From: Polytrichum commune
Lineage: Eukaryota > Streptophyta > Polytrichopsida > Polytrichales > Polytrichaceae
Length of the DNA: 64,000 bases
NCBI GenBank assembly: GCA_950295325.1
Contig: OX485805.1
Coordinates: forward strand, 23,919,501 to 23,983,500
Direction of reading: 5' to 3'
A program made the position numbers and the translations under genes. Shown here one piece after another: positions 3,797 to 55,015 of this stretch. Positions within the stretch are counted from its first letter, which is position 1, and each line of letters starts with the position of its first letter. The notes beneath the pieces were generated by a model. That model was not told the DNA's origin. It ran no database searches and saw only the letters and a list, made by a program, of their open reading frames with translations.

Positions 3797-4030
3797 TCTA
3801 AGGTCCACTTCACACACGAGCCAAGAGTTGTGACCATGAAATTGTGGGAGCCCAGAAGAAAGTGACCAAAGGCCGTCCCAAGGCACCTCCTACATCATGT
3901 AGTGTGGTCATGGACCCTCAAGTGTAGTGTGAAGCCATATGTGACCGGGCCCTCAACCAAATGCTATTTCAATAAATTTTTGTTCATGCGGGTCCTCACA
4001 CATGATAAAATAGAATAAATCAACGGTTGT
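3797..4030 (+). repeat. Dispersed repeat R2, 5' half
   Basis: Starts 'gtccacttcacacacgagcc', and the next 230 bp closely follow 25257-25480. It includes 'catcatgtagtgtggtca' and 'gataaaatagaataaatcaa'. The second half of R2 is missing. A related end-like motif 'agtgtgaagcggccct' lies at about 4568, so a larger rearranged element is possible. Confidence 0.6.
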
Positions 4031-5811
4031 GTTCAGTGTTCAAGATTGAAACTCTCGTATGAGTTTCATTTTGAAGGGCTCTCAAATTTTAGCTCTTCAG
4101 TTGAAGAGCTCGTTGAAATCCAAGACGTCAATCTAAGAATATAGAAATGTAATACAAAACTCATATTAAACTTGTGCATGAATTACATGTTACATGTTTC
4201 TAGTATAATGTGAAGAATTGAGGATCAACCATCTAACTCCACTTCTTGTAATGACAATGCCCTATGCTTGTTGGTTCTTGTGGTGGGCAAATTATATTGA
4301 GGACTTCAAGTGACATCTTCATTTTCAATTTGGGCCATATCGTGCTTGAAGGGCATTGAAGACTTCAGTCTTGAACACTGATCCTGTCCGACCCAAACTT
4401 CTTTCGAGAGTCCGTTGCCTGGGTCAAAAAATACTGCCATGTAGGCATTTTGGAGAGCGACGGCCTTTGGACTTTGGCCTCTAGTGTGAAGGGTCGAGAG
4501 GTTGGATTCTTGGTTTCTTGCAATCTGATTGGTGGAAATCGACGGCCTCTCGACCTTCAGCCATAGTGTGAAGCGGCCCTAAAACCCCACAAATCATATG
4601 AAACTCTAGATTGAATCAGGTTTTCATCACGAATATACATTAAATGTCCAAAAACATTTTTGGATTACATTGGAACCACTGAACTTCGGCATGAGGCCAA
4701 ACATGTTACAGGCTCAAAAACTATATATATCTCTAGAATAAGAGTGACGCGGGGTGTGTCAAGTGATTTTAGTAGCGTGAAAGATTCTCTATTTCAATGA
4801 AAGATTGTTCTCCTCACAAAATGATGCCAGGTGTCGTCTCTGTGTTGGCTGGGACACGTTAGAATCCAACATGGAACTACTGCGAGGATGAAATAGAGCG
4901 CCCAAGTCTACACAAGTTACGGGACGTGAATGCTAATTAAGTCACGGGAGTCTTATGACAATTTTGGGACTTTTTAATTAGCATGCACATTATGGGAGTT
5001 GCGGCCTCTTCAAGTTGAGTGCAATCTGTGCATGAGATATGGTGGAAAACATAAAGCATTAGGTTGCACTTAAAAATGCCCATTGATGTTGATACGATGG
5101 AGGGATGGATGGAAGCTGGGTTGAAGTAATTTTATAGAGCCCATCTTAATTCTCACAATGGGAGTTGATTTGGGCCACATTTCTTCTTAACTCACGGTAA
5201 GTTTCTAGTAGAAAATTAGTGTGGGTCATATTGATTATTTTTGTGGAAATTCATATGGGTGAATTATATTATTTTGTGCTATTTAAAAAAATCAATGTGT
5301 TTGTTAGAAGCCTTCATGAAGACTTAAGGGAAAGACCCAGGGTCCTGGACCGACATTAATTTTATCTTGACTAGATAATTAGTGTGGCCCATGCTAATTA
5401 TTGAGTTTAGTGTCACATAATGTTTGATAATAGTTTTTTTACTTAGAATATAATTTCCTAACAAACAAATTATTCTATGCCTTATTTCTATAATATGCTT
5501 AACACTCATTTAAATTTATTACAGAAAAAATTGGTCTAAAGGATACGAGTTGACGGTAAAGTCACCAAAAGTGGGGACCAACTCAGGTTTTTTGAAGGAT
5601 CTCCCATATTTGCCACTTCCAACACTTGTGTTAGTGAACTAAAAGAAACTAGGGAGGGAAGTCATTTTGCTCTCTTTCAAGGCAACAAAACTATAAGAAA
5701 GTTTCAAAATCTTTTTGTGAGCTTAATTCCATTTGGGGAGTCGCAAGTGCAAGAGGAGCAAGAAGATACATGTGCACACAGGTGACTCCCCCCCAGAACA
5801 TAACAAAACAC
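4031..5811. other. Gene-free stretch
   Basis: No open reading frame with recognisable protein similarity, RNA gene or clear transposon was found. Short inner repeats around 4440-4570 ('cgacggcctttgg', 'cgacggcctctcg') hint at decayed repeat sequence. Confidence 0.5.
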
Positions 5812-30479: not shown

Positions 30480-31890
30480 CTAGAGTTTCAAAAGCTCCTT
30501 GACACATGTTTATGGCCCCACACATAAATTAGTAATGCTTCAAACCTTTGTTTCCGATCGGAGTTAATTATGCAATAACTGAAAAGTACCATGGAATCTA
30601 TGGAACATTTTTTTTTCTTTCTAATCAATCAAGAAACCCTGTAAAAGGTCAGAACATGTAACCGGTGCAACTCCGAAACACATGGATTGTGACTAGGATC
30701 ATGCCTGAAAATCTACCCAGGACACTGAGATGAGGAACAGAGACGGAAGTGATGGCAGAAAAACATCATGATTTTGCACAGGCGAAAAAAGCGTCGTCTG
30801 CGAAGCTGATCCACTTCCCTCCTGTATTGGGATTTGCAATTTGCTCCTTGACACAGGTTTATGGCCCCACACAAAGTTTGGTAATGCTTAAAACCCTTGT
30901 TTCCTATCGGAGTTAAGAATGCAATAACTGAAAGATTACCATGGAATCTATGGAACACATTTTTCTTCTTCTAATCAATCAAGAAACCCCGTAAAAGGTC
31001 AGAACATGTAACCGGTGCGACTCGGAAACACATGGATCGTGACTACGGTGGTGCTCAGAAACCTACCCTGGGACTCTGAGATGGGGAACCGAGACAGAAG
31101 TGGTGGCAGAGGAGAAACACCATCATAATTTCGCACAGGTGAAAAAAAGCATCTGCTGCGAAGCTGATCCACTTCCCTCCTGCATTGGGATTTGCAATTT
31201 GCTCCTTGACACAGGTTTATGGCCCCACACAAAGTTTGGTAATGCTGAAAACCCTTGTTTCCGATCGGAGATAATAATGCAACAACTGAAAAATTACCAT
31301 GGAATCTATGGAACATTTTTTCTTCTTCTAATCAATCAAGAAATCCCGGAAAAGATCAGAACACGTCACCAGTGGGACTCGGAAACACACGGATTGTGAC
31401 TAAGGTGGTGCCCAGAAATCTACCCTGGAACAATGAGACGAGGACCAGAGACGGAAGTGGTGGCAGAGGAGAACAACCATCATAATTTCGCACAGGCAAA
31501 AATAAGCGTCTGCTGTGAAGCTGATCCACTTCCTCCTGTATTGGGATTTGCAATCTGCTCCTTGACACAGGTTTGTGGCCCCACAATGCTCAAAACCTTT
31601 GTTTCCGATCGGAGTTAAACTGAAAAATTACCATGGAATCTATGGAACCTATTTTTTCTTTCTAATCAATCAAGAAACCCTGGCAAAGGTCAGAACATGT
31701 AACCGGTGGGACTCGGAAACACACGGATCGTGACTAGGGTGGTGCCCAGATATCTACCCTGGAACACTGAGACGAGGACCGGAGACGGAAGTGATGGCAG
31801 AGGAGAAACACCATCATAATTTCGCACAGGCGCAAAAAAGCGTCTGCTGCGAAGCTGATCCACTTCCTCCTGCATTGGGATTTGCGATTT
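30480..31890 (+). repeat. Tandem array, unit about 355 bp, nearly four copies
   Basis: Units share 'ctccttgacacaggtttatg', 'gccccacacaaagtttggta', 'tttccgatcggagttaa', 'ttaccatggaatctatggaa', 'aacatgtaaccggtgg' and 'gaagctgatccacttcc'. The last motif falls near 30806, 31161, 31517 and 31855. Short frames persist on both strands because the units are similar. None resembles a known protein. It is followed by a CTG-rich run (31898-31925). Confidence 0.8.
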
Positions 31891-32076
31891 GCACCGCCGG
31901 CTGCTGCTGCTGCTCCTGCTGCTCGTGGTGTCAGGGTGCAGGCGATCGAGCTTCACTGCCTCACTGCCTCACTGCCCCTGATGCCCTGCCATTGTCGGTT
32001 GCCAGGATGTGCATTGCGCTGGCAGAGGAGTCCGCACTTGCAGGCCCCGCACTCACTAAAGTTAGGTAGTGCCCAC

Positions 32077-32890: not shown

Positions 32891-34752
32891 TGGCATGGTG
32901 GCCAACATGGCCGGCAACTGAACTGCGGCGATCTCTCATATCTTAGCTTTATACATTCGAATTGCATGCTTCTGCCAGCACTTGGTCTGATGGGCAGAGA
33001 GATTTTGTCAGAACTGCTTCCCGAGGTCCATGATTGGGGGAATTTGTCCCCGGTTCTTTATATTCGCTCACACTTATATCAAAGCCCTGCCCCCCCGCCA
33101 CTTGCAGCACAGTTGCTACATAACATTCTTCAGCTCATGTCCACCAGTTGGTGGGGGCTGGACCCGTGGATTGATATTCTAGGATCGATGGTGCATGGTT
33201 TGCATCTTGCAGGAGTTTTGTATTGACGCTGAAGCCACTTGGGACAAATGAGGTGCAAATGTCGTGACTTCATTCATTGTCGCTACTCATCAGATTTGTT
33301 GATTTCGTTGGTCGACACTTTAACAAGCCGCAAAATCATTATTCATTATGAGCCAGCAAACGGTTGTGTGTTACTGAAAGATGTTGTGACAGCAAGGTCA
33401 TCTTGACCTTGAGCCTGACCTCATCTCTGATCTCAATACCCCGATATCTCAATATGAGATGATAAGGTAAGTTGAGGTCGGGAGGCATTCCCATCCCCAC
33501 CTCAATAGGTTCAATGGGATTGATGTCGGTTTGATTAGCCTCCTCTAGCTTCGGTTTGGACGAACGAACGTATATTTGTTCTTTGTTGGATGTTTAAACT
33601 CTTGCTAGGAACCAGTGTACAGGTTGGTTCGCCCCAGTACTCTAGCTTCAATAGAAGGTACAATTCTTCATCTCAAAGCGATCTTGGGGGTGGTCTTGGA
33701 TCAGCAACACAAATGGCTAGGGTGGGAGGGTGTTTTGTGAAGCCCAACTTGTAGTCATTAAACATCCATGGCGATGAGCCCCAACAACAGTCACGTATCG
33801 GCACGGCAACCAATCTATTCATAGTGCATGCAGTTGGACATGTTTACTCTAGTGCCTGACATTTATTAATCCAATGCATTCAGCCGCACCGGAGCCGGAA
33901 ATTGATGCACAAAACTTGCTAGAATTATCGGAGTTGGAGAGGCTATATGCATGCACTAGTAGGTGGTACCGGACAACTAGTGGGGTGTATTTGGCAGGTT
34001 CAAGTCAACACTTTCCATGGGATCATGTTGGGGTCACCGTCAGAGCGCTCAATGGGAATGCACTAAGTGAACAACTAACCCCAAAGTGTGAACCTACCTT
34101 ATGGTGGGTTTACATTAGGGTCCAACTTCAAAAAACTTGGTGTCCAAAACGGGCCCTTTGTGGACCTTATTTACAGACTAAAGATTCGACCCAACTTGAA
34201 CTTAGAATAGTTTTTTTTTATTCAATGAGAGTGTGATACAAATTTTTGGTCATGATGTATAACTTTTTGAATTTTGACAAAATTTGTGCTCCAAATGGAA
34301 GTTAGAATGCCGAATGAATGAGAAAATAGGAAGTTAGTGACTAATTAGTAGAAATGAGTAAGAAGTGAATTCTTTTCACCCACCTAAACTAAATATTAGG
34401 ACGGGAGAGTCGAATGGGCGGGGCCATATACATGTGATCAAAATAAAGAGACTCAGAAGATCAGGATATGGGCAGACCTACTAGCAAGGGAGATTTGTCT
34501 AATTGATAAGGACCATAGGCAGTGTGTGTGTGTGCAGAATCTCATTCACCTCTCGGGAAGAGAGTACATTTTGGGCCTTCTTCAAGGGATGTTTCAGGTG
34601 TATAAAGAGAGCATTTTCTGGGTGTGAAACCCTAGTTCTGTAAACAACACCCCTTTATGATATAAAAGTGTGATGTACATTTCCACATCTCTCAATGTGT
34701 GTCTTATTCTTGTGACTTGCAAGGTTCTTAGTGAGGACAGTCCATTCAATAA
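32891..34752. other. Gene-free stretch
   Basis: No exon of a known family is recognised. A 131-codon frame (32831-33226, +) and a 120-codon frame (33874-34236, +) show no domain, splice context or codon pattern that would support a gene. Confidence 0.45.
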
Positions 34753-34914
34753 ACACCATATTCGAAATTTTGGGAAAATTCCATGATTTTGGGAAAATAC
34801 AGTGTAGGTTGAGTCGACCTAAAATGTACCCACTGGGTACATTTTAGATCGACTCCACCTAAACTGTCATCAAATTGGGAGACTGGAAATCTCCCAAAAT
34901 TTCGAATATGGTGT
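34753..34914. mobile_element. Foldback MITE with TAA target duplication
   Basis: The left arm ACACCATATTCGAAATTTTG and the right arm, mirrored, are nearly identical at the tips. The inner arms 'gagtcgacctaaaatgtacc' and 'ggtacattttagatcgactc' also pair. It is flanked by TAA on both sides (34750-34752 and 34915-34917), which suits the PIF/Harbinger (Tourist-like) class. Length is 162 bp. No coding capacity. Confidence 0.75.
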
Positions 34915-34977
34915 TAATACCATTCAGAGGATATTGTGTAAGTGTTGGTTAGTGGCTAAATCACAAGGGAAATTATG

Positions 34978-35325
34978 CTCGGGGGGGGGGGGGGGGGTAG
35001 TCATTGGTTGGAGTAGCAATATACGTGCGAACAAATGATAGGGTATTTTAAAAACATGGGGGCAAAAAATTATAATTGGACTTAAGAGTAATATAGGGTA
35101 TCAAAAATGACACTGGACATCTTTAAAGTACTATAGGGTATGGAATAATAGGTAATTTGGAATTATAAGTAATGCAAGCCATTTTTTTATTAACCCAAAG
35201 TAGAAATTTACATAATGATAGCATGTGAAAAAAAGAAGAGAATTGAAAGTAATACCCCCCTATAAAATAGTGGTTGTTCGCACCTATATCCTTAACTTTT
35301 TAACACACTGCCCCCCCCCCCCGAG
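34978..35325. mobile_element. Non-autonomous TIR element with G-run/C-run ends, copy 1
   Basis: The left end is CTC followed by 17 G; the right end is a run of 12 C followed by GAG. The 8-bp direct repeat AAATTATG flanks it (34970-34977 and 35326-35333). An 8-bp duplication suggests hAT-like mobilisation. The inside has 'tcattggttggagtagcaat' and 'tagggtatcaaaaatg' and no coding capacity. It is nearly identical to the copy at 35595-35931. Confidence 0.8.
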
Positions 35326-35594: not shown

Positions 35595-35931
35595 CTCGGG
35601 GGGGTAGTCATTGGTTGGAGTAGCAATATACGTGCGAACAAATGATAGGGTATTTTAAAAACATGAGGGCAAAAAATTATAAACGGACTTAAGAGTAATA
35701 TAGGGTATCAAAAATGGCACTGGACATCTTTAAAGTACTATAGGGTATGGAAAAATAGGTAATTTGGAATTATAAGTAATGCAAGATATTTTTCTATTAA
35801 CCCAAAGTAGAAATTTACATAATGATAGCATGTGAAAAAAAGAAGAGAATTGAAAGTAATACCCCCCTATAAAATAGTGGTTGTTCGCACCTATATTCTT
35901 AACTTTTTAACACACTGCCCCCCCCCCCGAG
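35595..35931. mobile_element. Non-autonomous TIR element with G-run/C-run ends, copy 2
   Basis: Same inner sequence and orientation as 34978-35325, with only a few substitutions. The left end is CTC plus 7 G and the right end 11 C plus GAG. Flanked by GCACCCA (35588-35594 and 35932-35938). The different target repeat shows independent insertion rather than tandem duplication. Confidence 0.8.
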
Positions 35932-35938
35932 GCACCCA

Positions 35939-38500
35939 ATCGATGTCAACTTGTCAGAAGGACAATACATGCAACTGTGAGAGAAGAAGTGTAATTTTGA
36001 CACCTTTAAAGTGCGATAATTCCTGGTAGAGAGTTGAGTAGCACGGCTAATTACATGTCTATTCTCGACATGATTAGAGCAAATTGTGTTAGTTGAGATA
36101 TCTTTCTGTCAATTCCCCAGGCATTGAGTAATTTTACCACTAGGGGAGATGTAGGTGAAATGTCCTTTCTGAGAGAGGAACACAACTCTCTCTTTCGTGT
36201 GAAGAATGTGGTGTGCACCGTGAAGTTGAGAATTGAGATAACTCAACAAAATTGAGAATCGGGCGGCGGAGTGAAGCTCGTGACCAAGTTTTGTGAGGTC
36301 CATCGTCTAAGTAACTATCTCAGAAGGCGACCATAATCTTTAATGTTGGGACCATAGTCTGTAGTGACGGCGAAAGGTCGGGAAGATTGAGGAGCTTGAT
36401 CACATGAGGTGAATCGTGTAGAAGAAGGGAGACACCATTGTCCCATAAAGCTTGGCAGAAGGCCTGAGAGCCAGCATAAAGGGAGTAAGGGCTAGATATG
36501 TCTTTGAGAACTTGATGCTTACTTGTGATTGTTACTAAGACTATGGCCCACTCTATGAGACTCGATACTTGGAATTGATTATTGGTTGTTGAGATTATGG
36601 CCAACACTCAAACCACTATGGACTTGGGGATTTAGACTCGATCGGTTTGCTTAGGGTCCGATACTAGTTTTCGTCACTTGTAACTAAATTTTTGTGAATT
36701 ACAACAACTAATTTTAAAATAATTAAGCCCAATATTGGCTAATTAATCTAGAAGAGGAAAAAAATATTGAATATAGAATTACCAGCTTTGATTAGATAAT
36801 CCGAAAGCTTGAGGGGTATAATGGAGATAAATTGTGAATGGATGCTAACTTGTGACATGGCCTATAGTTACTGGATACTTAAGGAAGAGACTATGGACTA
36901 AAACAAGGGGCCTTGGCCTTGGGTGTATGAGACTATTGCTCACTCAAACGGCTATGGTTGAGTTGTGACTCCCTGAATTGTAAAATCATAATAAGAGGGA
37001 TGATATTAGCAAGAGTGTGTTGTAAGGGAGTGACTAAGCAATTGTATGTACTACATTGAGTGACCTTGAATACCCAATCCTCAATCTAATAAGACCCAAA
37101 TCTTATCTAAGAAGATGTTTACCCTGGGATTGTCATACTAATTTCATTTCATAATCCTTGTAATCTATCAATCAACCTAATAGTGATACCTAGATGTAAG
37201 TCTGACACTCATTTAGTCTTCCTTGTGTGGTTTTCTTAATTGGAACCCAATCTCAAAAACTATCTATAGAGAGCAACTAAGTTTGGGCAAGAACGTGATG
37301 CCACATTAGTGTCACTTTTCCATGCCTTGGACTCATATCCTACTGTACACTCTTTGGTGTCCGGATTGCTACTCTTGACCAATAAGATCGCTTGATTTTA
37401 AAATTTCTTTGGTCTCGGACCCTAATGTAAACCCACCCTAACTTAAAGTATGCAAGACTTAATTGAACACTAATCTTATGCATATTCCTATAGTGAGTGA
37501 TATATGACAAGCATTGTAGATAAGAATGGAAATGTGTATATATATATATATATATATATGACACTTAAGTTCAGTATATATTTGAACAAAAACATATAAA
37601 TACTTGTGGTAGATTCTATGCAATTGGTAAGCTTTAACCATAGGTTCTAGAATCTAACTTTGTCATGGGTTCTAAAATCACCTTTTGATCTTCGTCATAT
37701 TACTTTGGTTGCTCAAGCCTTACAAAGTCTTGATTGTAGATACCAATATGAGGACATATAACTATACATAACTACACATAACAACATAAGCTTGCTAGAT
37801 AACTTGCCACTCATACTTTATATCATACCTGAACCCCCTTCGAAGTGTCATGTTTATTCCATAGTGAAATATAGTAGTTTATGTCTTCAGTATGGTAGAA
37901 TTTCAAGGATTTTATTTTAAGGAAAGAATAAAAATAAAAAGACGAAATCGTTGCCTTAATTGAACATGAATCTTTGCCCACATAATAACAAAAAAACACT
38001 CTTCTCTAGGAAGAGTGTTATAGTACTCCTTGTAAACTTCAACGATCGCAATTTCCTTTCCTTAAGCCATGTGCCAAAAAAACTTAAGTGTTGTGGATCT
38101 TTATTTTAAGAAAGTAGTAGGGTAGGGCTTTATGCACATTTTTGATTTGGGAACCTACCACTATTACCCAAGGTGAAAATGCATGCAATTTTATTATAGT
38201 ATATGGGTTTTTTTTGAACAATTTGACCCCAAATTAGTCTAGAGGGATTCACTTGAGATGAATAAAGTACAAACACTACGGAGATCATGTTTTTACCATA
38301 CCTCTTTTAGGCTTTACCTCTTGTGGGTACTAAACTCAAAGAGGTGGGTGTCTAGAATCTAGCCCACATTGCATAGAATCCCTTATCACAAGAAATTTTT
38401 ACACTAAAATCAGTTTTAAAAGCGATTGGTTCACTCGGAATACCAGCTTCTTTTGCTCCGCATCAATAAATATCACTTATTATATAGAAATCATTATATT
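35939..38500. other. Gene-free stretch
   Basis: No exon of a known family, RNA gene or bounded element is recognised. A (TA)n tract lies at about 37536-37559. Confidence 0.5.
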
Positions 38501-39640
38501 TGTTAGGAAGTGCAGTGTCACGCATGTCAAATAAGATTTTAAATTGTAAGTTGTTGAAGGATCGGACATCGTAGGAAACACTTTGGTGTGTGTCTCTTTT
38601 ATTCTATAACATTTGATATTATTTCAGGTTTCAAGATGCACATGCTCATGTTCTTTTGTGGTTGCTCAAACGTTATCAAATATTTATTGAAAAAATGATT
38701 GCTATGCATATTTTGTATTAGAAGTGGACCAACGTTTAAATACAATTCTCCAAGCGGTGTTATTTTGTGTGTCGTGCCATCCCAACTTAAGAAAGGATGC
38801 CCCAATTTCAGTAAGCTTGTCCCAAGCAGTTGACCAATTGAGAAGCCTCAATTTCTTGATTGAATGTGCAAACCAATGTCCATAAGTGACAACAAGTGGA
38901 CCTATAGAGGGTGCGTCGATACAATGGAGTTTAAGTATGATGGTGAGTGATATACAACATATGGGGCATTTGCAGGTTTAGTTTGGTTAGTGTAATATTC
39001 ATGCACAAGTGCATTGCGTCTTCTTTTGCGTTGGTAGTGTATTCTGCCAAATACACGTTAGCAAGTCTACTTTATTGTATAACGTGTATTTGGCAGAATA
39101 CACTACCAACGCAAAAGAATATGTAATGCACTTGTGCATGAATATTACACAAACCAAACTAAACCCACAAATGCCCCATATGTTGTATATCACTCACCAT
39201 CGTACTCAAACTCCATTGTATTCACACACCCTCTACATGTCCACTTGTTGTCACTTATGGACATTGGTTTGCACATTCAATCAAGAAATTGGGGCTTCTC
39301 AATTGGTTAACTACTTAGGACAAGCTTACTAAAATTGGGACATCCTTTGTTAAGTTTGGATGGCACGACACACAAAACTACAACGTTTGGAGAATTGTCT
39401 TTAAATGTTGGTGTACTTCTAATACAAAATATGCATAGCAATCCTTTGCTCAATAAATATTTGATAATGTTTGAGCAACCACAAAAGAACACGAGCATGT
39501 GCATCTCGACACTTGAAATAATATCAAAATGTTATAGAATAAAAGAGACACACACTAAAATGTTTCCTACGATGTCCGTTCCTTCAACAATTTACAATTT
39601 AAAATCTTATTTGACATGCGTGACACTGCACTTCATAACA
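38501..39640. repeat. Long inverted repeat, 560-bp arms, 19-base loop
   Basis: The left arm 38501-39060 starts 'tgttaggaagtgcagtgtca'. It is mirrored end to end by the right arm 39080-39640, which ends 'tgacactgcacttcataaca'. The loop 39061-39079 is only 19 bases. Next to the loop about 40 bases pair perfectly ('gcgttggtagtgtattctgc' and its complement). Farther out the arms differ by scattered changes. A transcript would fold into one long double-stranded RNA stem. Each arm contains an outward-reading frame (38805-38599 on -, 39335-39655 on +) with the same peptide character. That peptide is not recognised. No target duplication is seen. Confidence 0.85.
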
Positions 39641-42600
39641 GACTTGAAGGTGTGAGCTACCAATGAACATGGGGAATGTAAGACGACATGGCCGCCTCAG
39701 AGGGCACCAATTCTGGACGGCACTTCAAACCTCCTCTTTGAAATCCATGACTACCATAATATACTTCATCATTTGCTTCTTGTTGCAATTATGGATATAT
39801 TACAAAAGATATTAAAAATACCACAAATGATATGCCACGAACCCTTCAAAAACAATAATAACTTTTACACAAAAGAAAAAGGTTGTGAACTTACAATGTA
39901 AACTAGCTTCACAACCTAATAACGACATTGTGATTCGTTAAACTATCCAATTTGTTATAGAAAAGTGAACAAATGTTAAATCTCATTCCTCGATCTATTT
40001 TTATGGTAGAATTAGACTTTAACTTTTTAAATTCAAAAGTAAAAAATCCTTTCATTCATGATTCTACTTTTGGTTCTATTTTGAATAGTGTAGTTCTACT
40101 ACTACTCACTATGAGTATTTTGATCTTCTTTCATCATTTACTAGTGAATGTTGGATATCCATCTTCTCGGAGCACTTCACCTTAAGTCCTGCGAATCATT
40201 TTAATATAGATTTGCATCAAATTGATAACTTTCACACAATTTAGTGTTGAATTAGATTTATACATGATAATTTCAACCTATTAAAAAATGTCAATGTCTT
40301 CAATGAAACATGATCTTGGTTTCATGAGGCTTCATTATCAAAATAAAGTCTTCATTCAATCAAGAATCTTATAAAAGATCTGCAATTGTTGTGAGACAAC
40401 TTGCAATATCTTTTATTTTTTGTAATTATTCAATCATGATTTTCATAATAATATATGTATCCTTCCAAAGTTTATTAAAGGGCAAGCTTGACATAATGTG
40501 GCATTACGTGAATTGGACAGGTTAGAAATTCTTCTCCGATTTAAGTAATCTCCTATAGTGCTTTGTCCTTAGTTTGGGATATCAATATGGACTTAAAATA
40601 TGCTAAGAATTTTTTATTATTATAGCCGTTGTCAAAAGAATAATACTACAATCTCAAATGTCAAGCAATACTTGAAAATTTGAGGTGAAGAGAAGAAATA
40701 AGAGGTGGGATAAGACAAGGGATGTTACTACGACCTAGGCTTAACAATTGTTGATTCATAAAAAAAAGTACCCTCAAGTTCTAGATAGTCATAATAATTA
40801 TACTACATATATTTTCAGATTAATATGATAATATCTAACGGGTGGAGGCCTTACCATTCCTAAACTTGTTGTTTTTGGGCCCCATTTTTTTCATTCATAA
40901 TTTTTTTCTCTTCAAGTTTGTCATATTTTTTTTACTCTTTCATTATGTAGCCTTCAAAATTTTATCTTTGATGATTTCTAGTTTTTTTAGCCTTCGGATC
41001 CAATTTGGATCTTGGTTGAAGGAGTTAATTGTTGTTCCCCCCCCCCTCACCAAGGTGGCCATAGATGGTTCAGTAGTTAGTGTTTCGGCTCTCCATTATG
41101 ATTTCTTGCATGGTCATAGCCATCCATTTTATTGCTTCAAAAATTTGGCATTAGATGGGGTAAGAATTTATTTGACTTTAAAATGATACAATATATTGAA
41201 ACACTAGTTAAATTTATGGTTATAATAATATTGATCAAAACAAATAAATGGTCCTCCTATTTGAGCTTATAACACTCTAGGTTTTTTTTAGCATGATGAG
41301 ATGGCTCTTTTGGACTTTAACGCATTTGATTCAATTTGTTGAATAAACCAAGCTAGATCATTGTCTCGTATGGATTGTGCTTCAAGATCTTCAACTTGAA
41401 AATTTGAGGTTTTGTGTCAAATGAATGAAAATTTGTCTCTTCTTCTTTAGTGGGCATGACATTGTAATGAAATTTGATATTTTACATGTTGTTATCCTTG
41501 TTGTTTGAAATTTTTGATAGATCTTTTAATAGACTCTAAAGATGTGAAGGCATACATATTTCCCAATCCAATGCAATTTCATGTAGAAGGTGAAAGGACC
41601 CACGTCATTGCTAGGGTGTTATGTCATATTAGCAAGTTTAAAATTTTAAAATAAAATAAAATAAAAATTATTATTATTATTACAAGGCCAAAAAAATCCC
41701 ACATATGTAAAGAATGGTTACAAGATCATGGGTTTCATGATTGAAAAAACTCACAATAGATATCCAAATAATACTTCAATTAGGTCCTGAGATAAAATTC
41801 TCATAAATTGTTTTTAAAAAATTACTTAGAAAATGCACAGTTTTGCACAAGTTTTTAGATGAATATGTAATCTTGATTAGCATATCTGTAAAAGCCAATC
41901 TTGTGCATTTAATCAAGGTCATAAAAAATATTGCAACAAATTTTGACTCAATTGAAAAACCTATATGTTGGTCCTCGGTAAAAATGCTTTAACCTTCAAT
42001 ACAAAACTTGGAAGGGATTTCCATATAAGGTCGTCAACAAGAATTTTAGATTAGTAAAGAGCAAGGTCATAACCATAATCCATGTGATCAATTTTATATA
42101 AACACATAGGATAATTGGTGTGAACAAATATTTTCTCTCAAGCTACAAAGCTTACTTAAAAAGAATTGCGCATTGAAATCATGTTTACTTTTCATATGTT
42201 TTTTCTATGATTAATGGAGAATAGATAAGCTTCAAACAATATGATTTTTTTCAAATAAAATAGATACACACCATTTTATCTTTAGGAGAGATTCATACCT
42301 ACCTTATAAAGAGCCCTGGAAATACCTAAAATTGAAGATGCCTTCTCCAGTTGCAAATCATCTAGTCAAGAGGATTAAAAAGAACCACCATGTTTGAGAC
42401 TTAGCAAGCTCAGAGACTTAAGACTACACACAAATCTACATGGAGTCCTACATGGCAACAAATAGACAATGATTCATGGTCTACTAAAATTTGTTGTTAG
42501 GGCTTACCTCAAAGAGGTAAAGCCAGATGCGATATCCACTAGACCATGGCTTATAAATAAAGTGTTATTGGTTCCTAAAAATATTTAATTGTCTTGGTGG

Positions 42601-44135: not shown

Positions 44136-46023
44136 CTACTTCTTTTCTTGCTCGGCCAATGAGGCAGCATATGATGGAGGTGGTCTAGTGACAATGCTGC
44201 GCTTCCATTGTCGGTCAAGTTTCCTGGATTCCCTAAGAGTCACGCCCCTCTCAAGTTCCCGTTCACGTCGGATAGTCAGCATCCTTGCAATCTGCCAATG
44301 CCAGCAAACAATTGACTCTTTAGAAACAGCTGCTAGGTGAACAATCAGTTCATGACGAGGTCTCAGTTCTTGCCGACCTTGTCCAGAATAAGAAAGATGA
44401 CTCCGATGTTGCCACCAGTGTGGATTATTGTGTTGCTTCATCTTTGAGTTGGTCTAAGTCTATACATAAACCCAGAACATGCATCAAGAGAATTAGAGTG
44501 CCCCCCCCCCCCCGGAACATTTTTTCAAAGGTGAACACCTTGAACAGGTGCAAGCTATCTTCCCACGTGGTTTGTTGAAGTTACCTGGTTCACCCGTATA
44601 CCCCCACTATGGGTGGACCATAGGTGGTAGGGTGCAACACAAATTAAGTGATAGAGAGGTTACCCATCCAAATACTATTCTGGCCTTCGGCAGCTTAATC
44701 TCAGAGTTCCCATGGGATGCCTAAGGCTTTGGAATTAAGCCATCCTTTACCATATCCAGTAACTCAAACATGCATTCATCTATGACAACATATGCCCCAG
44801 ACAACACCAATTACAAACAAACAAGAATTCAGTGGCTTAACCTCAGAGTTCCCATTGGGATCCAGGTTTAGGCCTTGGATTTAAGCCACCCTCTACCATA
44901 TCCAGCAACTCAAACACACATTCATCTATAACGACATATGCTCCAGAAAACACCAACTGAAAGAAACAAGATTTCAGCAGCTTAACCTTGGAGGTCCCAT
45001 GGGATCAGGGTTAAAGCCTTGGGTTTAAGCCACCCTTTATCATATCCAGTAACTCAAACAGGCATTCATCTATGACGACATATGCTCCAGACAACACCAA
45101 TTTGGAATTCACACGGGATCCGGGTAAAGCCCTTAGGTTTAAGCCACCCTATACCACATCCAGTATCTCGAACAGGCTTTCATTCAACTATGAAGACATG
45201 TGCTCCAGACATCAACACCAATTGAATTCCAGAAACAAGAATTCATCAGCAATAAGGAGAAGCAAGAACCAACCTGTTTGCGGATGCGGCGAAACTCGCT
45301 GCTCTTGTACTCCTGTCGAGTAGCCTGCTTAGACCGAAGCAAGAAGAGCTCTCCCTTCAAATCCACCACAGTCTGATTGATGTCCTCGTCGCTCATCTTC
45401 CTAATACCTACCAGCTCCTCCTCCCGCTTCGCCATCGATACAACCTTCAAAGAAGGTGCTCCTGAGACTGTCTGTGCCTCAGGCATAGCGACGGACCGCA
45501 TGCGTACACTGCCATTGTTCGAACTGCTCACGCTTCCCAACCTCTCTGGCTACAAAACCAAACCAAAAAAAATAGGTTAAACAAACACACACGCACACAC
45601 ACACACTCCCTCGCCATTCAAGCACCCATAGCATCATTCCACTTCCACCATCCCTAAATTCACCAATGCAGTCATTCCTTACAAAAAAAAACGCAAGCTT
45701 GTAACCCTAATGCGAGTCCTTCCTGAGGTAAAGGATAAGGTTAGATAGAATCTAAATTCTGATCATTAGATACAGAAAAATGACAAAATCATTCAGGTAC
45801 TTCCTTAGCTAGTGATAGAGCTGCGAGAACCGGAGATAGTTGGTGGAACATGTGATAATGTTGAAGTCACATTGCTTGGTGACGAAAAATCGTACAGTGT
45901 GCAGAGTGATTTTGTTGTTTTGGAATTGCAAGAGGGGAGAGGGACAGAGGGAGGTTCAGGTTGGTTGCTTACCAGCTTGAGGGAGGTGGCGAGGGAGGAG
46001 AGGTTGAAGGCCAGGGACGCCAT
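44136..46023 (-). CDS. Plastid ribosomal protein bL29 (nuclear-encoded)
   Basis: Three exons on the minus strand, 46023-45973, 45549-45274 and 44291-44136, join in frame with GT-AG introns to give 160 aa. bL29 is part of the large subunit of the chloroplast ribosome, near the exit of the nascent-chain tunnel. Residues 1-45 are rich in Ser/Ala/Leu and poor in acids, as in a plastid transit peptide. The L29 core follows: 'LVGIRKMSDEDINQTVVDLK' then 'GELFLLRSKQATRQEY'. The helix goes on across the intron ('RRIRKQ' to 'IARMLTIRRERE'). The C-terminal extension 'RKLDRQWKRSIVTRPPPS' is typical of plant plastid L29. The start is the first ATG, and its 17-codon exon ends at a good donor (gtaagc). A (GA)n tract lies in the leader. 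Confidence 0.92.
44292..44682 (-). other. bL29c intron 2, 3' part, with C run
   Basis: Intronic sequence. Includes a run of about 14 C near 44502-44515, read as G on the transcribed strand. Confidence 0.5.
44683..45235 (-). repeat. Tandem repeats in bL29c intron 2, unit about 146 bp, four copies
   Basis: Each unit has 'cagcttaaccttggaggtcc', 'ttaagccaccct', 'accatatccagtaactcaaa', 'cattcatctatgacgacata' and 'tgctccagacaacaccaa' or variants. Units start near 44688, 44832, 44978 and 45100. The array reaches to within about 40 bases of the exon 2 donor site. Confidence 0.8.
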
Positions 46024-53068: not shown

Positions 53069-54240
<1,172 letters not shown>

Positions 54241-54599: not shown

Positions 54600-55015
54600 T
54601 ACGACTATACTTGAACAGGATCTGTTCTATAGTGCGTACCTTTGATCTGTGTTTTCCAATGCAGACAAGATCTTCATCCTGGACGATGAGATGTGACTCT
54701 TCCTCCTGAGCGCGAATACCAAGGCCCTCTTAACCAGAAATGGCTGGAGGAGGTTTGCTTGATGAACGTCCCGCCTGCACATTCCGCAGGCGGTGATGGA
54801 CGGAGAGTGTTCTGACGGGTGTTCCATTTTGTTTGTTGTGGTTTTCCTGTGATGTTCAATTCACCGTTGCCTGGCCTCTATCCCTTCTATCTACCGAGTT
54901 ATCAGTGCAAAACCTTGAAGCTCTCGCTCCATTTCATGCAGAAGCGAGGACATTGGCAATGGCTCTGGTCAATATGTGTGAATCTGTGGCTGCCCGTTTG
55001 AATGCGCCTGCTTTA
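54600..55015 (-). pseudogene. Second copy of the reductase pseudogene 3' part
   Basis: About 220 bp at 54602-54820 closely match 53075-53295 ('cttgaacaggatctgttcta', 'gacgatgagatgtgactct', 'gaacgtcccgcctgc'). Farther up, 'gtgtgaatctgtggctgcc' matches the exon around 'EATDS' in the first copy. The catalytic exon is absent. It abuts the RuvB-like fragment on the same strand. Confidence 0.6.

Follow-up and report, generated by a model that had tools for sequence, protein, structure and literature searches.

Long hairpin transcripts are diced in plants. In foldback elements, long inverted repeats at the termini flank a very short middle. Other inverted structures have been described in plants and yeast. 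For example, Mu killer of maize is a partial inverted duplication of mudrA (MuDR), and the portion of PMC3440606 used here proposes that read-through yields its hairpin RNA. In yeast, foldback inversions that pass through single-stranded DNA hairpins have been documented, with loops of fewer than 15 bases termed 'short' and those of 15 or more termed 'large' in the relevant section of that study (PMC7467729). Inverted duplication also appears as a source of young plant MIR genes in the part of the review PMC10004981 that treats Allen et al. 2004. Hairpin-prone regions of maize genes and of several transposon classes, Helitrons included, have raised CHH methylation, according to the excerpt of PMC10760457 considered here.

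Here we describe a near-palindrome of about 1.1 kb in Polytrichum commune. We regard it as very probably an inverted duplication, confined to one locus, of part of a dead Helitron, now drifting without detectable constraint. It lies in a 64-kb window, the whole stretch of DNA that was analysed. An earlier sequence-only reading had placed two arms around a 19-base spacer, and this geometry was borne out by a repeat search and a global alignment of the arms. The features are as follows.

38412-39067, minus strand: left Helitron fragment, the longer copy, with its coding sense on the minus strand, outward from the loop (alignment to eight relatives)
38412-38500, minus strand: outermost part of the left Helitron fragment, lacking a right-side counterpart beyond 39643 (alignment to relatives)
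38501-39060, minus strand: left arm of the palindrome, 560 bases (repeat search and global arm alignment)
39061-39079, no strand: spacer, 19 bases (repeat search, alignment to relatives and RNA fold)
39080-39640, plus strand: right arm, 561 bases, an inverted copy within the extent of the left fragment, with its coding sense on the plus strand, outward (repeat search, global arm alignment and alignment to relatives)

The global alignment of the arms runs over 561 columns with 42 substitutions and one gap, a total of 43 differences (92.3% identity). A single 1-base gap makes the repeat search split the arms into two adjoining pairs. When inverted pairs of at least 60 bases with at most 3 kb between the arms were listed for the window, five rows resulted. 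Two of these rows are the palindrome, which is the longest inverted pair listed under these limits. A chimeric-read artefact is unlikely, given 43 columns of difference between the arms and a left copy that continues past the mirror (38412-38500).

The surroundings hold repeats of several kinds. A short repeat directly to the right of the palindrome (39655-39746) recurs at 18 further places in the genome, at 77-90% identity over 49-106 bases. Twelve of these 18 copies were retrieved, and every one of them aligns over about 65-130 bases; the 12 have no flank in common, though certain pairs resemble each other further. Across the repeat core, one frame stays open in 9 of 13 sequences (the window and the 12 copies), and the window ORF that holds the core has no Pfam family. 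On the left, a high-copy dispersed repeat (36400-37270, 1230 first-look candidates, 40 of them scored) ends about 1.1 kb from the Helitron fragment and may begin earlier than 36400, where the query started. Farther out are two direct repeats of 331 bases (34991-35321 and 35598-35928, 97.3% identical, 276 bases apart), which we take from their look to be a miniature LTR retroelement (TRIM). The 170 bases at 34749-34918 match their own reverse complement at 77% and are possibly a small inverted-repeat element. A tandem array with a period of 334 occupies 30494-31892 (4 copies, 86% matches). Inverted repeats of 231 bases at 1677-1907 and 3801-4031 (89% complementary, 1.9 kb apart) enclose a 254-base tandem array, and the unit is possibly a terminal-inverted-repeat transposon. 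Among ten ORFs around the palindrome, Pfam gave one match above cut-off, a Ribosomal_L29 domain (E 1e-9) in an ORF at 45184-45549 on the minus strand, which points toward the palindrome from 5.5 kb away. This ORF may be one exon of a gene for ribosomal protein L29, perhaps of the plastid type, which is a guess. Two tandem U3 snoRNA genes about 1.5 kb apart (53072-53292 and 54601-54821, plus strand) are the only Rfam matches at gathering score in the whole window (Plant_U3, 110 and 124 bits), and they also identify the genome as that of a plant.

The parent of the arms was sought with each arm as a DNA query against the window's own genome (408 Mb, 64 contigs). The left arm returned 11 matches, comprising the two arms, eight nearly full-length loci (75-79% identity) and one short match; the right arm returned 12, namely the two arms, the same eight loci and two short matches. 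All first-look candidates were scored (10 of 10 for the left arm, 11 of 11 for the right), and assembly gaps may hide further copies. The genome search proposed by the sequence-only reading as a route to a parent locus ended in eight nearly end-to-end matches, all linked to Helitrons. Both arms match one and the same place in each relative. The relatives were taken as stretches of ∼8.6 kb; none of the eight is palindromic, and self-comparison gave no inverted self-match at E 1e-20. They are alike over stretches of at least 2 kb that span the arm-like part and beyond.

Listing the ORFs of three relatives (L006, L003 and L001) placed the arms within the element. In L006, the minus-strand ORF adjoining the arm-like stretch matches PF14214 (Helitron_like_N, E 3.1e-28) and the next ORF after it matches PF05970 (PIF1 helicase, E 9.6e-21). 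The arms correspond to about 3940-4578 of L006, immediately upstream of the Helitron_like_N part. With the Rep-domain ORF of L006 as protein query, matches appeared in all eight arm-related loci; the search gave 51 rows in total, several per element for some elements, and 14 rows contain no internal stop. Two less closely related Helitron loci, L021 and L022, align with the arms at 60-63%. For the arms and their relatives, the Pfam searches covered five ORFs of L006, one of L003 and two of the window arms. No domain above the curated cut-off lies in the arm stretch itself (two window, two L006 and one L003 ORFs), so its Helitron identity comes from its position within the relatives.

By homology to elements that encode Helitron_like_N and PIF1, then, the arms derive from a Helitron coding region and not from a host gene. 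The parent gene that had been left unidentified does exist, but it belongs to a Helitron instead of the host. Likewise, the earlier remark that no intact transposon surrounds the arms fits what was seen, except that the arms are themselves transposon sequence. The outward peptides common to both arms, also noticed before, are Helitron protein remnants broken by shared frameshifts. The Rep and helicase of a functional Helitron were not found at the palindrome, where similarity to the eight relatives ends at 38409-38418 and 39637-39643, the arm ORFs have no Pfam family and the frames are broken. L001 is the nearest relative by identity (79%) and is still 21% diverged; the true source copy was not found among the matches.

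Alignment to the relatives also reveals how the two copies relate to one another. The left fragment aligns with 3975-4627 of L001 at 78.8% and with the seven further loci at 75-76%, and the outer ends of these alignments fall between 38409 and 38418. On the right, the eight relatives align from 39080-39087 to 39637-39643. The right copy is nested in the left, which is about 89 bases longer at the outer end and 7 bases longer at the inner end. The first 7 bases of the spacer (39061-39067) match the Helitron relatives; the other 12 have no clear match. No exact 5- to 8-mer common to both outer borders was seen in the 45 bases around each, and no target-site duplication flanking the palindrome was seen when the borders were compared for exact direct repeats of 5-8 bases.

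The order of events can be read from shared changes. The arms are sisters in two trees (UFBoot 100; FastTree local support 0.999), and L001 stands beside them with weak support (0.777 in FastTree and 73 in UFBoot). Three single-base deletions and one 6-base insertion are common to both arms and absent from all eight relatives; the right arm has one private single-base insertion. Because of the shared indels, the fragment was probably already broken and frameshifted when it was duplicated. Later conversion between the arms, spreading indels from one to the other, could mimic this order. K2P distance is 0.083 between the arms and 0.25-0.31 from the arms to the eight relatives. For dating, substitution rates of 1.3e-8 to 4e-9 per site per year were assumed, and under these rates a K2P of 0.083 places the split of the arms about 3-10 million years ago. 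The description of the locus as an inverted duplication that has aged thus holds, given the sister arms, the shared indels absent in the eight relatives and the distance between the arms.

Within the arms, the earlier description of perfect pairing next to the loop with changes farther out was correct in part. A perfect run of 40 columns does adjoin the loop, and a loop-side run of 40 columns occurred in 3.6% of trials under random scatter. This run might point to some conversion close to the tip of the hairpin. However, longer perfect runs (53 and 43 columns) lie farther out, of which the 53-column run, the longest in the arms, is unremarkable (P 0.44). Counted in 40-column bins that start at the loop and run outward, the differences between the arms number 0, 4, 2, 7, 0, 4, 4, 5, 3, 4, 4, 2, 3 and 1, with 0 in a last bin of one column. 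Bins without a trend, together with the long outer runs, led us to reject a gradient of divergence outward from the loop.

The region is predicted to fold into a long and almost continuous hairpin on either strand, with predicted energies of -873.1 kcal/mol (plus) and -866.5 kcal/mol (minus) that have no shuffle control at such length. The predicted plus-strand fold adds 4 pairs within the spacer and leaves a 10-base loop. On this modelled structure, siRNA production from a transcript of the palindrome is possible. The substitutions between the arms gave no indication of selection for RNA pairing: for a plus-strand transcript, the transitions comprise 13 G-U and 14 A-C cases (p = 1.0), so pairing has not been preferentially kept. 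Polarising the 42 arm substitutions against the relatives left 23 polarised, 15 ambiguous and 4 matching no relative; 14 of the 15 ambiguous substitutions are transitions, and 3 of the 4 without a matching relative are C/T or G/A differences. We saw no excess of C-to-T or G-to-A changes (1 of 15 changes private to the left arm and 2 of 8 private to the right), and hence no mark of heavy methylation, in a test of little power because 19 of the 42 substitutions are unpolarised. A methylation-type mutation bias was rejected on these counts. The sequence tests for constraint on the palindrome are negative or weak and give no sign of upkeep for a function, and as far as mutation patterns go, the siRNA and young-MIRNA readings gain no support.

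We propose that the palindrome arose as follows. A Helitron copy would have been cut down to a fragment of ∼0.65 kb and would have gathered frameshifts, as the shared indels support. An internal 560-base part of this fragment would then have been copied in reverse about 19 bases from the fragment's own end. The most likely cause is an episode of DNA repair or replication, with a 3′ end folding back to prime synthesis on the strand it belonged to. We infer foldback priming from the short spacer, the nesting of one copy's extent in the other's and the fact that no target-site duplication is visible. Either foldback or template-switch repair acting on the left fragment is thus the likely maker of the inverted copy. 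The arms appear to have drifted apart since, at a K2P of 0.083, under no constraint that we could detect. If either strand were transcribed, the RNA would form a nearly unbroken hairpin of about 560 bp, and Dicer-like proteins would be expected to cut it into siRNAs. Given general knowledge of plant inverted repeats, the most likely consequence would be local methylation of the palindrome, with at most weak action on related Helitrons. By analogy with hairpin-prone maize sequences, raised CHH methylation is the mildest expectation for the locus.

The alternative that survives best is a silencing locus of the Mu killer type, in which the inverted Helitron fragment would be transcribed, for example by read-through, and its siRNAs would silence related Helitrons in trans. 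The palindrome has the architecture of Mu killer, itself a partial inverted duplication of a transposase gene in the portion of PMC3440606 cited above, and the long hairpin predicted on either strand would suit this role. Sequence matches allow some reach as well. Between 5 and 35 of the 1120 21-mers of the palindrome match perfectly in the aligned stretch of seven of the eight relatives, and 80-190 of 1120 fit relatives with no more than two mismatches, which makes weak action in trans on the relatives possible. Nonetheless, the inverted duplication of transposon coding sequence is here combined with an identity of only 75-79% to all eight relatives found, far from near-identity to a target, although assembly gaps may hide a closer copy. 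Most siRNAs would mismatch, and L007 has no perfect 21-mer in common with the palindrome. The fragment was probably frameshifted by the time of duplication, and the ratio of 13:14 reveals no bias toward keeping RNA pairing. We therefore consider such a locus improbable. A more specific version, a 'Helitron killer' near the ribosomal protein L29 gene that was transcribed at some stage and whose siRNAs helped to silence the Helitron lineage, would by the same analogy be marginally less probable again.

Less credible still, and in our judgement quite unlikely, is a proto-MIRNA locus from which a young microRNA gene would be emerging. That young MIR genes can arise by inverted duplication is accepted (Model 1 and Model 3 in the part of PMC10004981 on their origins). 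Here a transposon is the source, rather than a host gene destined to be the target, and mismatches run along the whole arms where one precise foldback would be left in a MIRNA. Rfam assigns no family at gathering score in the palindrome. MIR6135 (E 1.9e-9, 58.3 bits against a gathering score of 99) was considered and dropped, as a narrower search of the loop region gave 25 rows from 18 families, all below gathering score and several on both strands. Sixteen of the 18 families are listed as miRNA and two as sRNA, and these matches are best explained by the hairpin itself.

Two further explanations are very unlikely indeed. A chance head-to-head insertion of two independent Helitron fragments might be entertained in a genome where the group is multi-copy (the 51 Rep-domain ORF rows), but it is contradicted by the sisterhood of the arms (100 and 0.999) and by the 6-base insertion and three deletions that both arms have and none of the eight relatives has, and it sits poorly with arms that join within a few bases of one parental position. 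A mobile foldback element, moving as a unit with very long terminal repeats, would look similar, with long inverted repeats around a tiny middle, but we rejected it since the window locus is the single palindromic copy among nine full-length matches, no target-site duplication was seen and the arms are internal Helitron coding sequence; several palindromic copies with target-site duplications would mark such an element.

With these alternatives weighed, the palindrome is best read as one old inverted duplication, at a single locus, of what remained of a Helitron. It offers a case in which the order of decay and then duplication is readable from sequence. It also illustrates that one inverted duplication can turn a transposon relic into a potential source of long double-stranded RNA. 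If siRNAs were found, a Helitron would be silenced by its own inverted debris, a combination for which the literature searches showed no case. Without such siRNA evidence, the palindrome is ordinary genome debris.

How does the locus compare with described systems? Helitrons are rolling-circle elements with Rep/HUH and PIF1-like helicase functions. The arms represent part of such an element's coding region, whereas the stretch that matches contains no Rep or helicase domain, and to our knowledge a palindromic arrangement is not a Helitron feature. The likeness to yeast foldback inversions, in the section of PMC7467729 cited above, lies in an inverted copy joined through a short spacer. By the size classes given there, the 19-base spacer would count as 'large-loop' and the 10-base loop of the predicted fold as 'short-loop'. 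The palindrome differs in being interstitial in a plant chromosome, and its founding event is reconstructed from sequence. Young MIRNA genes, as far as the part of PMC10004981 in question describes them, share the inverted duplicate arms and extended foldback, while the founder here is a transposon fragment and not a host gene.

By analogy, the closest functional parallel of the palindrome would be Mu killer of maize. The palindrome derives from a Helitron and not from MuDR. Mu killer has two TIRA copies in the portion of PMC3440606 used here, whereas the similarity of the palindrome to its relatives breaks off within coding sequence, which leaves no transposon ends in view. The palindrome fragment was probably broken when duplicated, and its arms differ by 8% from each other and by 21-25% from the closest relatives recovered. 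Mu killer is proposed in that source to give hairpin RNA, and the palindrome is known here from its sequence alone. What the two have in common, on the same partial account (PMC3440606), is a partial inverted duplication, at one locus, of a transposon's protein-coding region that could in principle form a hairpin.
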